Source of the DNA: Streptomyces sp. NBC_01314
GTDB taxonomy: Bacteria > Actinomycetota > Actinomycetes > Streptomycetales > Streptomycetaceae
Reading direction: 5' to 3'
DNA length: 64,000 nucleotides
NCBI RefSeq assembly: GCF_041435215.1
Contig: NZ_CP108394.1
Location: 7,564,001-7,628,000 of the forward strand
The position numbers were made by a program, and so were the translations under genes. Below are positions 48,457-54,716 of the stretch, piece after piece (within the stretch, counting starts at the first letter, position 1; each line of letters begins with the position of its first letter). A model generated the notes under the pieces. That model saw nothing but the letters and a program-made list of their open reading frames with translations, ran no database searches and was not told the DNA's origin.

Positions 48457-50121
48457 TCAGGCAGGCAGCGGCGGAGCCTCACGGCGGCGTTGCCCCGGCC
48501 GCCCCCCGAACCCATGCCCGTGACCGTGCCCGTGCCCGTGGGAATGGCCCGGCGGCTCCGCCGACGGAAGGCGGACGACGGCGTCCAAGCCGCCCGTGGC
48601 CGCCTCGCGCAGAGCCACATCGCCACCGCTGGCGTGCGCGAGACGCTGGACGAGGGAGAGACCGAGACCGGTACCGCCCTTGGGGGCGCCGGGGGCGCGC
48701 CAGAAGCGGTCGAACGCGCGGGCGCGCTGGTCGGGCGTCATACCGGGGCCCTCATCGGTGACGTGGAGGTCGACCCAGCTGGGCCGGGCGTCGCGCAGCG
48801 CCCGGCGGACGGGGGCGAGCAGCCGTAGCTCCATGGTGACCGTGCTGCGGGCGGGGGAGGCGCGCAGCGCGTTGGAGAGGAGGTTGTCGAGGATCTGCTC
48901 CACGGCTCCGGGGACGGCCGTCACCGGGCCGACCACGCCGGCGAAGAGGACCAGCGAGACCCCTTCGCGTTCGAACAGCGGCCCCCATGTGCGGTGCCGT
49001 TCCGCGCAGATCGCGGCCAGGTCGACCTGGGCCGGGATGGCCGCCGCCTCCTCCAGACGGGCCATCGCCAGCAACCCCTCGACCATCCGGGCCAGCCGGT
49101 CCGTCTCGGTGACGGCGGCGTCGAGGCTCGGCAGCGCGTGCCGGGCGATGTCCGGCTCCAGGTTCTCCAGCCGTAGCCGCAGTGCCGCCAACGGGGTCTT
49201 CAGCTGATGCGAGGCCTCACCGGCGAAGGCCCGCTGGGAGGCCAGCAGGTGTTCGAGGCGGGCGGCGGTCGTGTTGAAGGCCGCCGCGAGACTCCGTACC
49301 TCCGGCGGGCCCGAGGTGACCACCACGCTGCTGGCCGCACCGCCCTCGGCCAGCCGGTGCGTGGCCTCCTCCAACTGCCGGATGGGGCGCCCCGTCCAGC
49401 GTGCGAACGCGAACGCCACCGCGGCCACCCCGGTGAGCACCGCGAGTCCGGCCAGCGCCAGCAGCAGCCAGACCGCGAACACCCGGGCGTGCACCATGGT
49501 CGTCGGGAGGGTGACGCGTACGGCGCCCTGTGTCGTCACTGCGCCCGAGCCGGAACCCGCCCCCGTCCCTATCGCCGTCCCTGTCCCTGTCCCTGTCCCC
49601 GTCCCCGTGGCTGTGGCTGTGGTCGACCCGGCCGCCGTGATCGAGCCCGTGTTCGTGACGGAGCCCGTGCCCCGGCTCGCGTCGGCGCCCGTGTCCGCCG
49701 CCGCGTGGCCGACCGGAGCGGCCACGGACAGGTAGTGGACGCCGCCGGTCGTCGTCGTGCGTACGTCCGTGGTGGCGCGGCCCCGGAGCGCGGCGGAGAT
49801 CTCGGGTTGGGAGGAGAGGGTCTGTTCCTCGTCGTCGGCCAGGGAGTGCGAGGAGGCGAGCAGCTTCCCGTCCGCGTCGACGATGACGACCTTGCCGCCG
49901 ATGCGCTCGGCGCAGTGCCTGGCCCGTTCGACGAGTTCGTCCTGGCGGCCGGCGGCCAGGGACAGCGCGGCGTACGCGGCCACCGACTCGGCCTCGTCGT
50001 TGGCCGAGTTGACGATCCGCTCGCGTTCGGCCCGCGAGTAGACGAAGCCCAGCGGGATCTCCAGGCCGAGCAGGACCAGGGCGGCGAGGCTGAGGTAACT
50101 CAGCAGCAGACGCCGGGTCAT
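48457..50121 (-). CDS. Sensor histidine kinase with Thr-Gly and His-Gly repeats
   Basis: 554 residues. Membrane helix at about 5-28, extracytoplasmic sensor 29-260, second helix at about 270-295 (VFAVWLLLALAGLAVLTGVAAVAFAFA), HAMP, HisKA with the phospho-His in GEASHQLKTPLAAL, and a kinase domain with DNLLSNALRAS (N box), DEGPGM (G1) and GGTGLGLSL (G2). The sensor includes a Thr/Gly stretch (TATATGTGTGTGTGT), and the C-terminus is HSHGHGHGHGHG. Start ATG 50121 overlaps the regulator's stop (ATGA). Signal unknown. Confidence 0.92.
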   Translation of the reverse strand: MTRRLLLSYLSLAALVLLGLEIPLGFVYSRAERERIVNSANDEAESVAAYAALSLAAGRQDELVERARHCAERIGGKVVIVDADGKLLASSHSLADDEEQTLSSQPEISAALRGRATTDVRTTTTGGVHYLSVAAPVGHAAADTGADASRGTGSVTNTGSITAAGSTTATATGTGTGTGTGTAIGTGAGSGSGAVTTQGAVRVTLPTTMVHARVFAVWLLLALAGLAVLTGVAAVAFAFARWTGRPIRQLEEATHRLAEGGAASSVVVTSGPPEVRSLAAAFNTTAARLEHLLASQRAFAGEASHQLKTPLAALRLRLENLEPDIARHALPSLDAAVTETDRLARMVEGLLAMARLEEAAAIPAQVDLAAICAERHRTWGPLFEREGVSLVLFAGVVGPVTAVPGAVEQILDNLLSNALRASPARSTVTMELRLLAPVRRALRDARPSWVDLHVTDEGPGMTPDQRARAFDRFWRAPGAPKGGTGLGLSLVQRLAHASGGDVALREAATGGLDAVVRLPSAEPPGHSHGHGHGHGHGFGGRPGQRRREAPPLPA

Positions 50122-51815
50122 GACGCCCTGGTCTCGGGTGTGCGATGCCTCCCGGATCCCGTGCCACGCCCACGGCCGTGCCCCTGCCCCTGCCCGCGAC
50201 TCCGGGGCTGGCCCTGGCCGGGTCCCGGCGCCTGCCCGGGGGTGCGTACGGCCAGCCGGAAGCCGACACCGCGCAGGGTCTGGATCCACGCCGGATCACC
50301 CAACTTGCGGCGCAGAGTGGCGACATGGACGTCCAACGTCTTGGTCGGGCCCTGGTAGTGGTCGTCCCAGACGCGGTTGAGGATCTGCTGCCGGGAGTAG
50401 ACGGCGCCGGGATCCTCGGTGAGCAGCGCCAGCAGTTCGAACTCCTTCGGCGTCAGCGCGACCGGCACCTCGCCCACCCACACCTGCCGGGTCCGCCGGT
50501 CCACGACCAACGGCCCGGGCGGCGGCGGAGCCGAACCGTCGTCGTCGGCTGCGGCCGGACCGGAGGGGGCGCGCGAGTCCGGCGGGACCTGCTCGTACAT
50601 GGGGGGCTCGTAGAGAGGCGGTTCGTAGGCAGGCGGTTCGTAGACGGGCGGCTCATAGACCGGGCTGCCGTACGCCGGGCTCCCGAAGGCGGGGGTGCCG
50701 TGCGGCGGGGTTCCGTAAGTGGGCGTGCCGTGCGGCGGGGTTCCGTACATCGGCGAGCCGTGTGGGGGAGTGCCCTGCGCGGCGGTGCCGCCGAACACGG
50801 GGTTTTCGAACGCAGGGTTGCCGGGGAAGGGCGGGGTTCCGTGCGAGGGGGTGCCTTCGAAGGGCGTTCCCTCCATTGGTGTTCCCTGCGCGAGGGTTCC
50901 CTGCGGCTGTGCCCCATGGGCCGGGACCTCACGGCCCGACGCGCCACGGCCCGACGCGCCACGAGGCGCTGTCCCGCGCGTCGGTGCGCCCTGTGCCGGC
51001 GTCTCGTACGCGGCCGACCAGTCGTACTCCGACCCGTCGGCCCCTACGCCGAAACCGGCCCTACGGCGGCCCGTGTCCCCATCGCCGAAACCGGTCCCAG
51101 GGCCCGCGTCCCCGTGGCCGGTGCGACCCGACCCCTCGGCACCGACGCGGCTTGAGCCCTCGGCCCCGAGGTCGTTCCCCGCCCCGAGATCGTCCCCTGC
51201 CCCGAAGTCGCTCCCAGCCCCGAAACCAACCCCGGACCGTCCTCCGGCACCGACACCGACACCCGCACCGACCCCGGTAGCCGACTCCCGCTGAGCCGCC
51301 AACTCACGTGCGGACAGCCCTCGTTGGTCATAGACCTCACTCCCGCCCCCGGCCCCGATCCCAGCCCCGACCCCGACGTCGGCCCCAGCCCCTCTCCCCA
51401 CCCCTGCCTCAGCCACCACAACCCCGGTGACCACGCCGGGCACAGCCCCGCCTCCGGGTCGCTGATGGCGTCGTGACACCGCTCGTATGCGGGCGACCAG
51501 TTCTCGGATGCTGAATGGTTTCGCCAGGTAGTCGTCGGCGCCGAGCTCCAGGCCCAGCACGCGGTCGGCCTCCTCGCCGCGCGCGCTGAGGATGATGATG
51601 GGGACATCGGAGGTCCGGCGGATGCCGCGGCAGACGTCGATGCCGTCCATGTCGGGCAGGCCGAGGTCCAGCAGCACCACATCGCCGTGCGGACCTCTCA
51701 ACCCGTCCGCGCCGGTGGCCACGTGGTGGACCGTCAGGCCGAAGTGCCGCAGCCCGTCGGCGAGCGGTTCGGCGATCGTCTCGTCGTCCTCGATGAGCAG
51801 CACTCGTACGCCCAT
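50118..51815 (-). CDS. OmpR-family response regulator with a disordered linker of about 300 residues
   Basis: 565 residues where the family normally has about 230. Receiver at 1-117: acidic D10/D11, phospho-Asp D50 in LLDLGLPDMDG, S77, K99 in DDYLAKPF. Winged helix at about 430-525: VALTPKEFELLALLTEDPGAVYSRQQILNRVW...TLDVHVATLRRKLG. Between them lie about 300 residues of Gly/Ala/Val then Gly-Thr-Pro repeats (GTPPHGTP) and Tyr-Glu-Pro-Pro repeats (YEPPVYEPP). A GQGQGHGRGRG tail follows the DNA-binding domain. Both functional domains look intact, so this is probably a working regulator. ATG 51815; ribosome site weak. Confidence 0.92.
   Translation of the reverse strand: MGVRVLLIEDDETIAEPLADGLRHFGLTVHHVATGADGLRGPHGDVVLLDLGLPDMDGIDVCRGIRRTSDVPIIILSARGEEADRVLGLELGADDYLAKPFSIRELVARIRAVSRRHQRPGGGAVPGVVTGVVVAEAGVGRGAGADVGVGAGIGAGGGSEVYDQRGLSARELAAQRESATGVGAGVGVGAGGRSGVGFGAGSDFGAGDDLGAGNDLGAEGSSRVGAEGSGRTGHGDAGPGTGFGDGDTGRRRAGFGVGADGSEYDWSAAYETPAQGAPTRGTAPRGASGRGASGREVPAHGAQPQGTLAQGTPMEGTPFEGTPSHGTPPFPGNPAFENPVFGGTAAQGTPPHGSPMYGTPPHGTPTYGTPPHGTPAFGSPAYGSPVYEPPVYEPPAYEPPLYEPPMYEQVPPDSRAPSGPAAADDDGSAPPPPGPLVVDRRTRQVWVGEVPVALTPKEFELLALLTEDPGAVYSRQQILNRVWDDHYQGPTKTLDVHVATLRRKLGDPAWIQTLRGVGFRLAVRTPGQAPGPGQGQPRSRGQGQGHGRGRGTGSGRHRTPETRAS
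50535..51464 (-). repeat. Repeat-rich linker-coding DNA of the response regulator
   Basis: Multiples of 3 throughout: degenerate GGTACCCC/GGGACTCC-type units coding for GTPxxGTP, and YEPP units of 15 bp near 50590-50660. The frame is kept over more than 900 bp, arguing for selection on the protein. Confidence 0.75.
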
Positions 51816-52089
51816 GGCCGCCTGTCTCTCCAGAAAGTCGGGACAACACGGGGACCGTGTTGTGGGGCGCCACGCTACAAGAGACCGAACAAGAACGTGC
51901 AGGGAATCCGGGGCACTGTGAAATGACCCTCAGAAACCGCTTGTATTCGGTCGCCCGACCTGCGGCGAAGGCGGGTGTGGCCGAAATCTGTGGAAAACCT
52001 GGCGGCGCTTTAGTGTTCCCTTAACCTTCCTCTGGTCATCGCCCCCCTACGGTCGTTGGAGCTGGTCGGAACCGCTTCAGGGAGGCAGG
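51816..52089. promoter_or_regulatory. Divergent promoter region between the two-component operon and the carbonic anhydrase operon
   Basis: AT-richer patch at 51930-52030 with AACCGCTTG and TTAGTGTTCCCTTAACCTTCC. The second may be a regulator site. Ribosome site GGGAGGCAGG precedes the carbonic anhydrase ATG. Confidence 0.4.
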
Positions 52090-52731
52090 ATGAAGGCGCT
52101 GTTGGATCGCGCCCGGTCGTTCAGGCGACGGGTCGACTTCGAGAGCGACGAATACCGGAAACTCGCCGTCGGACAATTTCCCGAGGCGCTGTTCATTACC
52201 TGCTCGGACTCGCGGGTGATTCCCGCGCTGATCACCGGTGCGCGGCCCGGCGAGATATTCGAGCTGCGAAATGCGGGCAACATCGTGCCGCCGCACGACG
52301 CGTACGGGACCGCCTCCGGTGAGGCCGCCACCATCGAGTACGCGCTGGAGGTGCTCGGCGTTCAGGAGATCGTGGTGTGTGGCCATTCCCACTGCGGTGC
52401 GATGGGCGCGCTGACCTACGGCGCCGACCTGTCCGGCCTGCCCAGGGTGGACGCCTGGCTCGACTACGCGCGGCCCGCGCTCGAACCGGTGCTCGGCGGG
52501 CGCGGCGGGGACAGCGGTCGGGACGCCACCTCGTCGTCCGAGGACCCCGCCCTGACCGAGGTCGTCCAGCTCAACATCCGCAACCAGCTCGCCGTCCTGC
52601 GTGACTACCCGGTGGCCCGGCAGCAACTCGACGCCGGACGACTCCGGTTGCACGGCTGGTACTACGAGATCGACACCGGCAAGGTCCACGAACTGGACGC
52701 GGACGGGGACTTCCAGGTGCACGACTCATGA
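52090..52731 (+). CDS. Beta-carbonic anhydrase
   Basis: 213 residues. Interconverts CO2 and bicarbonate in the cytosol. Zinc ligands are in ITCSDSRVIP (Cys, with the Asp/Arg dyad) and VCGHSHCGAM (His, Cys). The ATG at 52090 has GGGAGG upstream. The stop overlaps the SulP ATG (ATGA), so the anhydrase and transporter are made together. Confidence 0.95.
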   Translation: MKALLDRARSFRRRVDFESDEYRKLAVGQFPEALFITCSDSRVIPALITGARPGEIFELRNAGNIVPPHDAYGTASGEAATIEYALEVLGVQEIVVCGHSHCGAMGALTYGADLSGLPRVDAWLDYARPALEPVLGGRGGDSGRDATSSSEDPALTEVVQLNIRNQLAVLRDYPVARQQLDAGRLRLHGWYYEIDTGKVHELDADGDFQVHDS

Positions 52732-54716
52732 GTGGCGCACACGGACGACGCCATGCGGCGTCCGCCCGCAGGGCCGTGTCCGCCCACGTCCCCAACGCGC
52801 CCGAGTCCGGCGGAGGTTCACCGAGGCAGAACCCGACCGCGGTCCCATATCCGGACTACCCGACCGAGGCCCCATACCCGGACTACCCGACCGAGGCCCC
52901 CTATCTGGACTACGCGACCGAGGTCCCAGATCCGGACCACCCGACCGACGTCCCGGGCCGGGACCACCCGGCCCGCGGATCGAAGGGGTCCCGCGCGGGA
53001 GCCTCTCGCGGCCGTATCGACTTCGGTACCGAGATCACCGCGTCCCTCGTCGTCTTCCTTGTCGCGCTGCCGCTCTGCATCGGCGTGGCCGTGGCCTCCG
53101 GTGTGCCAGCCGAGCTGGGCATCATCTCCGGGGTGATCGGCGGCCTGGTGGTCGGCGCGGCGCGCGGCAGCACGCTCCAGGTCAGCGGGCCGGCGGCCGG
53201 TCTCGCGGCGCTCGTCGCGGAGACGGTCATGGAGTTCGGCGTCGCGATGCTCGGCGTCATCGTCCTCTTCTCCGGCATCCTCCAGATCGTGCTGGGCCTG
53301 GTGAGACTGGGCCGGATGTTCCAGGCGATCTCCCTGGCCGTCGTCCAGGGCATGCTCGCGGGCATCGGCCTGCCACTGATGTTCAGCCAGCTGTACCCGA
53401 TGTCCGACTCCAAGGCGCCGGGCACCCCCCTGGAGAACATGGCGGGCGTGCCCGGGCTGATCGCCGACACCGCGACCGATCCGCAGGCGCTGATCGCCGC
53501 CGGGCTCGGCGTCGTCACGATCGTGCTGAGCTTCCTGTGGAAGAAGGCACCGGGGCCGGTCAGGAAGGTCCCGGCGGCGCTCGTGGCCGTCGGGATCGGG
53601 ATCGCCGTCGCCTCGTTGCCGGGTGTCGAGGTGAAGACGCTCCAGGTCGGCAATCTGCTGGCCTCCGTGGCCGTACCCGGGCCGGAGCAGCTGTCCGGGC
53701 TGGCCAGTGCCGGGATCATCACGGCGATCCTCACGTTCACCGTGATCGCGTCGGCGGAGAGCCTGTTCACCGCCGCGGCCGTGGACCGGATGCACGACGG
53801 CCCGCGCACCCGCTACAACACCGAACTCATCGCCCAGGGCGCGGGCAACACGATCGCCGGGATCCTCGGCGCGCTGCCCATCACGGCGGTCGTCGCGCGC
53901 AGCTCGGCGAACGTCCAGGCCGGTGCCAGGACCCGCCTCTCCCGCACGCTGCACGGCCTCTGGCTGCTCGCCTTCGCGCTGCTGCTGCCGCAGGTGCTGG
54001 CGCTGATCCCGATCTCGGTGCTCGCGGGTGTCCTCGTACACAGCGGGTGGAAGCTGTTCGCGCCGGACGAGTTCCCGAAGATGTGGCGGCAGGACCGGGG
54101 CGAGTTCGCGGTGATGACACTGACGACGCTGGTCATCACGGCGACCGCGCTGCTCGAAGGGGTGCTGTTCGGGCTGGCCGCGGGTGTGGTGCTGGCCGCG
54201 CTGCGCATGTCGCAGACCGTCATCCGGCAGCACATCGAGGACGACACGGCGAAGGTCGTCATGGCGGGCAACGCGACGTTCCTGCGGCTGCCGAAGCTGA
54301 TCGACGCGCTGGAGAGCGCGGCCGCCTCCGGCAAGCCGCGCATCCGGCTCGACCTGCTCGGGGTGACCCATCTCGACCACGCGTGCCGCAGCCAGGTCGA
54401 GGAGTTCGTGGCGCAGCGCCGGGGGGCCGGGCTGCGGGTGGAGCTGCTGATGCCGGACCTCACGGACACGGGCACGCGGATGCCTGCGACGGCTGTGCCG
54501 GTGCCCGTACCGTCGCCGGATGCGCAGGTGGACCCGGCGGAGGTGTGGGACTACGCGACGGTCGGTACGGCGGCGGTGGGGGGTATGGGACAGAGGCCGT
54601 CCGGGCCTGGGCCCGGGCCCACGGCCGAGTGGTTCTATCTCGACACCCGCCCGATGCCGGATACGGCGGAGTCCCGGCCGCCGCTGCTGCGCCGAGGGCG
54701 CGACTGGGCGGAGTAG
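52728..54716 (+). CDS. SulP-family anion transporter with STAS domain and repeat-bearing N-terminus
   Basis: 662 residues. Residues 35-80 are a 9-residue repeat (PYPDYPTEA), then a membrane part from about 97 to 490 with a SulP start (EITASLVVFLVALPLCIGVA), then a STAS domain (about 505-590: TFLRLPKLIDALESA, RIRLDLLGVTHLDHAC). SulP proteins carry bicarbonate or sulfate. The fusion of expression with a carbonic anhydrase points to bicarbonate. The tail (590-662) is Pro/Gly-rich. Confidence 0.92.
   Translation: MSGAHGRRHAASARRAVSAHVPNAPESGGGSPRQNPTAVPYPDYPTEAPYPDYPTEAPYLDYATEVPDPDHPTDVPGRDHPARGSKGSRAGASRGRIDFGTEITASLVVFLVALPLCIGVAVASGVPAELGIISGVIGGLVVGAARGSTLQVSGPAAGLAALVAETVMEFGVAMLGVIVLFSGILQIVLGLVRLGRMFQAISLAVVQGMLAGIGLPLMFSQLYPMSDSKAPGTPLENMAGVPGLIADTATDPQALIAAGLGVVTIVLSFLWKKAPGPVRKVPAALVAVGIGIAVASLPGVEVKTLQVGNLLASVAVPGPEQLSGLASAGIITAILTFTVIASAESLFTAAAVDRMHDGPRTRYNTELIAQGAGNTIAGILGALPITAVVARSSANVQAGARTRLSRTLHGLWLLAFALLLPQVLALIPISVLAGVLVHSGWKLFAPDEFPKMWRQDRGEFAVMTLTTLVITATALLEGVLFGLAAGVVLAALRMSQTVIRQHIEDDTAKVVMAGNATFLRLPKLIDALESAAASGKPRIRLDLLGVTHLDHACRSQVEEFVAQRRGAGLRVELLMPDLTDTGTRMPATAVPVPVPSPDAQVDPAEVWDYATVGTAAVGGMGQRPSGPGPGPTAEWFYLDTRPMPDTAESRPPLLRRGRDWAE
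52832..52966 (+). repeat. Five 27-bp units encoding the SulP N-terminal repeat
   Basis: Units read CCCGACCGAGGCCCCATACC then CGGACTA, in frame, giving about five PYPDYPTEA copies that drift to PDPDHPTDV. Confidence 0.85.

Follow-up and report, generated by a model that had tools for sequence, protein, structure and literature searches.

The window, a stretch of 64,000 nucleotides from Streptomyces sp. NBC_01314 (contig NZ_CP108394.1), encodes a response regulator of the OmpR/PhoB type in which 319 low-complexity residues separate the receiver from the winged-helix DNA-binding domain. OmpR/PhoB regulators are textbook bacterial switches and make up a very large class. We propose, with a rough probability of 0.65, that this protein is a working regulator of a conserved Streptomyces two-component system and that its linker is a length-tolerant entropic tether carrying weak contact motifs. 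Judged by comparison with its homologues, the regulator is the long end of a length-variable Streptomyces orthologue group and no singular oddity.

The open reading frame starts with ATG and encodes 565 residues with a calculated mass of 57.5 kDa. Pfam Response_reg (PF00072) matched residues 5-111 (E 1e-22) and Trans_reg_C (PF00486) matched residues 451-521 (E 4e-25), both far over the cut-off, the second giving the C-terminal winged helix of the family. D10, D11, D50 and K99, i.e., the acidic pocket, the phospho-acceptor aspartate and the lysine of a receiver, were invariant across 67 aligned homologues; both domains are intact, as the original prediction had stated. The residues of the alpha4-beta5-alpha5 face, which we take to be the dimerisation face, fall in a largely invariant stretch of the receiver. 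From the end of the receiver (R116) to the start of the winged helix (L436), Gly/Ala, GTP and YEPP repeats were found as previously described, over a length slightly greater than the 300 residues first estimated. An AlphaFold2 model built from 67 sequences was confident for the receiver and the winged helix, the latter with a predicted local distance difference test (pLDDT) score of up to 95, and most linker residues scored below 50 (mean pLDDT of the model 60.4, predicted template modelling score 0.39). The linker was nearly devoid of secondary structure, with two short helices of low confidence (169-176 and 266-270), in keeping with the disorder that had been expected. A Pfam match to an extensin-like domain in the linker reached 22.9 bits against a cut-off of 105 and was rejected as an effect of composition only.

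Linker length in related regulators

With the receiver alone as query, 392 Streptomyces genomes yielded 64 places, spread over 61 genomes, at an E value of at most 1e-52. The locus set comprised 69 rows, namely the window, its 63 companion places and five loci (L004-L007 and L009) taken from the 80 loci of a contig profile search, which were otherwise mostly general OmpR relatives. No winged helix was found in two rows (L140 and L145), whose contigs end nearby, and the remaining 67 were measurable; L007 and L009, which are more distantly related, lack both the carbonic anhydrase and the SulP gene. Linker lengths at the 67 loci ranged from 16 to 355 residues with a median of 61, and 10 linkers had at least 140 residues. 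Short linkers in all close relatives, named beforehand as part of an outcome fatal to the original prediction, were thus not observed; nor is the long linker shared by every relative. A protein search limited to at least 310 residues yielded linkers of up to 381 residues (P0096), and a search for shorter proteins yielded, among the matches listed, 66 relatives with a receiver identity of at least 80% and linkers of 13-49 residues.

Despite this spread, the domains in the orthologue group are often more than 85% identical. The receiver and winged helix of the window and of locus L106 were identical over 205 columns, with linkers of 319 and 248 residues, and six proteins with identical domains had linkers of 220, 223, 249, 255, 257 and 308 residues. 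The ten-row clade containing the window and L106 (support 100/97) includes L112, with a linker of 16 residues. When linkers of at least 140 residues were labelled as long on the 67-row tree, six changes, each a gain or a loss, were required, at least three of them forced by supported branches; among 117 proteins, a set biased to long proteins, eight such changes were required, five of them forced. That the length varies hugely while the domains are near constant argues that a fixed packing of receiver and winged helix and a defined linker length are dispensable, and hence that the core function cannot depend on a long linker.

Published linkers of OmpR/PhoB regulators have 5-20 or 5-21 residues (PMC4773095, PMC8329863), in line with the 5-20 residues that the original prediction gave as normal, and their length and composition are reported to affect function (PMC8329863). 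The window's regulator falls outside this range and its orthologues with 16-22 residues fall within or near it; the range is a description and no homology criterion. In the window's own genome, 27 other OmpR-type pairs of receiver and winged helix, measured with the same anchors and matched by hand from a scan in which 150 of 204 candidates were scored, had linkers of 11-39 residues (median 17); two winged-helix places that lacked a receiver match were left unpaired, as were many receiver places that lacked a winged-helix match. A genome-wide trend to long regulator linkers is thereby ruled out, and within this comparison the effect is confined to the window's regulator. No OmpR-type regulator with a comparable linker was found in the PubMed Central literature, covered mainly through open-access papers and through titles and the starts of abstracts. 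To that extent the earlier view that no regulator of this kind has been described stands, whereas the orthologue group takes away its singularity.

Reading frame, repeats and substitution in the linker

Both domains lay in one open reading frame, with a linker length that is a multiple of three bases, at 67 of the 67 measurable loci, and only 15 of 2000 base-shuffled linkers remained open; the open frame thus exceeds chance, for which the loci are much the stronger evidence, and it is kept over the repeat DNA, as originally claimed. In ten pairs of five relatives, the ratio of nonsynonymous to synonymous substitution rates (dN/dS) was 0-0.08 in the domains and 0.24-0.65 (mean 0.45) in the linker, the latter from protein-guided alignments of repeats, which are biased to low dN. 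Five linker pairs reread in frames +1 and +2 gave ratios of nonsynonymous to synonymous proportions (pN/pS) of 1.14-1.97. As protein-guided alignment favours low dN, codon-blind alignments were added. Third-position changes exceeded those at the other two positions between the window and L106 (108/246 versus 58 and 59), L108 (96/239 versus 52 and 54) and L110 (76/214 versus 52 and 57), and between L106 and L108 (50/234 versus 31 and 25). Gap lengths in the six pairs of at least 76% identity left remainders of 0, 1 and 2 on division by three in 49, 1 and 1 cases, respectively, with the count running from the final portion of the receiver to the gene end and the identity groups drawn post hoc.

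All 19 linkers of at least 90 residues carried tandem arrays, 89 in total, with periods divisible by three in 87 of them, mostly 15, 18 and 30 bases; the window's linker contained periods of 12, 15, 18, 30 and 33. Growth of the linker thus proceeds by tandem duplication that keeps the frame. From its frame and substitution pattern we conclude that the linker is a continuous coding region that evolves as coding sequence. A frameshift or assembly artefact in the window is ruled out by the 67 in-frame loci together with the coding-type substitution.

An alignment of 25 different sequences of the window's clade revealed three conserved islands in the linker (Table 1). With the islands separated, dN/dS was 0.14-0.40 in them and 0.29-0.89 in the remaining linker, a difference that is partly circular since the islands were selected by conservation. 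Over the group, the linkers are Pro/Ala/Gly sequences with aromatic-acidic motifs in which Lys is almost absent, and aromatic residues account for 6.4% of linker residues. With L007 and L009 set aside, 45 of 65 linkers contained the pair [YF][DE], compared with 24.4 on average and 34 at most in 1000 shuffles, and the reversed pair occurred in 14 compared with 24.5. Likewise, S[YF] occurred in 37 of the 65 linkers versus 19.5 in shuffles, and its reversed pair was below chance (8/65). Kinship was ignored in these counts, which describe a pattern and no independent events. The repeat units vary by clade (GTPMYGTP/YEPP, GESFGG/SFDSTGS and SYDPSG). A motif common to the linkers of L114, L124, L128, L133, L150 and L151 reads RGRTEALVERLR in five of them and RERAAALVERLR in L128.

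Possible roles of the linker

A kinase match followed the regulator at all 67 loci, in line with the family's genetic pairing with a histidine kinase, and at 59 of them the kinase ATG overlaps the regulator stop in the manner seen in the window (ATGA). According to the tether reading, the neighbouring kinase would phosphorylate the receiver, and receivers would dimerise by their own face, as is usual for the family. Each winged helix, held on a disordered chain, would then locate its own half-site, and the switch would be independent of packing between receiver and winged helix. The short aromatic-acidic motifs would be kept by weak selection and probably make low-affinity contacts; condensation or the binding of a specific partner via the linker is possible. 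The original prediction had suggested a tether, a phase-separating region or a binding platform as possible roles. Probable targets of the regulator are its own operon and the divergently oriented carbonic anhydrase and SulP genes. A conserved element, AAGGTTAxxxGAACACTAA, lies in the gap separating the regulator from the carbonic anhydrase gene; its AAGG[CT]TA core was found upstream in 53 of 65 orthologues and the tight whole element in 32. The element is alike before L112 (16 residues) and the window (319 residues); if it is an operator, the DNA geometry is not set by linker length.

A tightly built textbook signalling protein appears able to accommodate an enormous disordered spacer, of which it may make use, and it offers a bacterial case of a disordered region growing by in-frame repeats under selection. 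Since nature provides a series of linker lengths from 16 to 355 residues with near-constant domains and mostly near-constant gene context, whether the linker carries a signal or is only a leash can be tested with natural orthologues.

A strong rival, to which we assign somewhat less than even odds, is neutral bloat, in which a linker that serves no need is enlarged as GC-rich repeat DNA slips and undergoes unequal exchange, and selection acts only on frame, solubility and the absence of stops. Among proteins with identical domains, the linkers of the window and L106 are 71 residues apart in length and those of the six proteins above up to 88 residues apart, as neutral growth would allow, and the tandem arrays in every linker of at least 90 residues fit it as well. 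So do the repetitive N-terminus of SulP and a repeat insert in the kinase, present at six loci, for which the ten pairs above gave, by the same method, a dN/dS near neutrality (0.35-1.55, mean 0.90). However, the linker was more constrained than this insert in 9 of the 10 pairs, and islands such as EYDWSAAYETPA are kept across the clade. In addition, [YF][DE] exceeds chance while its reversed pair lies below it, and the 27 other OmpR-type regulators of the genome are unexpanded.

Sticker-and-spacer phase separators are disordered and contain multivalent aromatic or arginine motifs whose number matters. If the linker acted in this way, its aromatic-acidic repeats and the Arg/Gly or aromatic repeats of the tail would let phospho-dimers self-associate on DNA, as clusters or as condensates, or would draw in a partner. 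Aromatics make up 5.9-9.2% of the 10 linkers of at least 140 residues, and across the 67 linkers their number rises with length (r 0.95); every one of the 11 longest linkers is net acidic, clades differ in repeat units, and the C-terminal tail is RG-rich in the window and SYG- or YEPP-rich in some other orthologues. We nevertheless consider this role unlikely, as orthologues with linkers of 16-22 residues have near-identical domains and the same gene context, some repeat units contain no aromatic residue (e.g., L118 and L135), and the aromatic units may be founder effects from an ancestral YEPGP-like end, with kinship ignored in the counts. A more elaborate version, which we regard as decidedly doubtful, is that a long disordered linker, acidic and rich in aromatics, evolved repeatedly in the group alongside an Arg/Gly- or Tyr-rich tail and works as a tunable multivalent interaction region: upon dimerisation of phosphorylated receivers, the linkers would gather the regulator, or bring in a partner, at its promoters, and repeat number would serve as a fast-evolving gain control. 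As for the tails themselves, those of L120, L130, L131, L126 and L158 have grown to 77-100 residues; their aromatic repeats (YEPP, SYG and the like) resemble those in the linker of the window's regulator, and in L126 the linker and the tail are both long.

Alternatively, the acidic chain might act as an intramolecular brake, competing with DNA for the winged helix until receiver dimerisation raises affinity. The net charge of the 11 longest linkers (-6 to -22) would suit such a brake; its low density (-16 over 319 residues in the window) and the little charge of the short-linker orthologues make it very unlikely.

Several observations weigh against the tether reading, beyond the alignment bias and the partial circularity given above. 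The codon-blind comparison of L106 with L110, one pair in five, showed almost no excess of third-position changes over second-position ones (73/208 versus 53 at the first and 71 at the second position). In the nine pairs of at most 74% identity, where alignment is unreliable, gap lengths left remainders of 0, 1 and 2 in 41, 22 and 15 cases, which is not a clean pattern. Between the window and L107, one pair in ten, the kinase insert was more constrained than the linker. At 12 of the 65 loci the conserved element was missed in the upstream region, and at some others, L147 with its linker of 22 residues among them, its form is loose. Finally, a frameshift, one of the refuting outcomes named with the original prediction, was seen at none of the 67 loci, but isolated protein records are broken: the frame of P0122 is shifted right after the receiver, and two further records, P0052 (clustering 40 member sequences) and P0106, start inside the linker without a receiver.

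The three records, which carry the names S. scabiei, S. caniscabiei and Streptomyces sp. MNU76, lie near the window's clade; their breaks may be real or may be sequencing errors in G-rich repeats. Further short or odd homologue records end early, and some are flagged as partial by their source. That the gene is effectively split, with proteolysis or internal starts in the linker releasing a free receiver and a free winged helix, or with the frame broken in living strains, would account for these records but is the least probable of the alternatives, since all 67 measurable loci are unbroken, coding constraint is seen inside and outside the linker islands, the 120 matches listed in a length-limited search included no receiver-only protein of similar member count, and the intact relatives L110 and L107 have linkers much like those of P0052 and P0106 by eye.

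Gene neighbourhood and known systems

The features of the locus are collected in Table 1. The kinase insert had 51-92 residues at six loci including the window and 7-17 residues at the other 56 of the 62 loci measured. The large insert is present in only six rows of the window's ten-row clade, and the five linkers of at least 140 residues outside this clade accompany kinase inserts of 9 or 15 residues. Coupled growth of insert and linker was considered and, in view of these rows, rejected despite a rank correlation of 0.62 over the 62 loci. Carbonic anhydrase matches lay beside 60 of the 67 loci and SulP matches beside 57, with some contigs ending too early. The 27-base repeats in the N-terminus of SulP encode PYPDYPTEA, and the SulP N-termini of many relatives are low-complexity and variable. 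A second intergenic element, CTTGTAGCGT (51872-51880), was found at 43 of 65 loci by an exact 10-mer, 52-98 bases upstream of the regulator start where present.

Table 1. Features of the regulator locus, in window positions
Feature	Position	Strand	Basis
OmpR/PhoB-type response regulator, 565 residues	50118..51815	-	Open reading frame and translation, Pfam, homologues
Receiver domain, residues 1-116, phospho-acceptor D50 and K99	51468..51815	-	Pfam PF00072, invariant residues, pLDDT block means 69-92
Linker, residues 117-435 (319), low-complexity, predicted disordered	50511..51467	-	pLDDT block means 30-65, dN/dS, tandem arrays
Linker island 1, HQRPGG..GVVTGVVVAEAG, residues 117-139, conserved in the window's clade	51399..51467	-	Clade alignment, island dN/dS
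Linker island 2, around GSEYDWSAAYETPA (EYDWSAAYETPA in the clade alignment), residues 258-277	50985..51044	-	Clade alignment; low-confidence helix 266-270
Linker island 3, YEPPMYEQ..PP..R.PSGP..PPPPGP, residues 398-435	50511..50624	-	Clade alignment
Winged-helix DNA-binding domain, residues 436-524	50244..50510	-	Pfam PF00486; pLDDT block means 72-95 over residues 431-520
Arg/Gly-rich C-terminal tail, residues 525-565 (41), and stop	50118..50243	-	Sequence, AlphaFold2 model
Cognate histidine kinase: HAMP, HisKA, HATPase_c, weak sCache-like sensor match below cut-off	48457..50121	-	Pfam
Gly/Thr low-complexity insert in kinase sensor region, 63 residues by anchors	49522..49710 (approximate)	-	Anchors, dN/dS
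Carbonic anhydrase (Pro_CA), divergent	52090..52731	+	Pfam PF00484
SulP-family transporter, repeat-rich N-terminus	52728..54716	+	Pfam PF00916, tandem repeats 52831-52970
Conserved intergenic sequence AAGGTTAxxxGAACACTAA, a putative operator or component of a promoter	52008..52028	-	Orthologue comparison

The regulator shares the receiver, the winged helix and the family residues with OmpR/PhoB regulators such as RegX3, MtrA, PrrA, BaeR and KdpE. Its best sequence matches in the PDB were RegX3 (2oqr), BaeR (4b09), PrrA (1ys6) and MtrA (2gwr); among the best 60 of 289 matches, the chains of OmpR-type regulators matched in two stretches had 220-270 residues compared with 565 here. CreB and CseB were the best NCBIfam matches, both below their cut-offs, and none of the best 25 of 84 reached its cut-off. 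Sco5282/Sco5283 of S. coelicolor likewise comprises an OmpR-type regulator translationally coupled to a downstream kinase and is prevalent in the suborder (PMC6629963); the likeness is one of type and arrangement, and the word "linker" is absent from the main text of that paper.

As a flexible interdomain sequence in a bacterial regulator, the linker resembles Q-linkers and other low-complexity linkers of prokaryotes. In DNA-binding proteins, such regions show an enrichment of Lys foremost and also of Gly, Tyr, Phe and Gln (PMC6821194). The linker described here, however, is far longer than these linkers and is Pro/Ala/Gly with aromatic-acidic motifs and almost Lys-free, and its length is hypervariable between near-identical domain pairs. 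VanR of Streptomyces coelicolor belongs to the same family and genus, and linker length has been discussed for it (PMC8329863). Its own linker has 11 residues and is ordered in crystals (PMC8329863), whereas that of the window's regulator has 319 and is predicted to be disordered.

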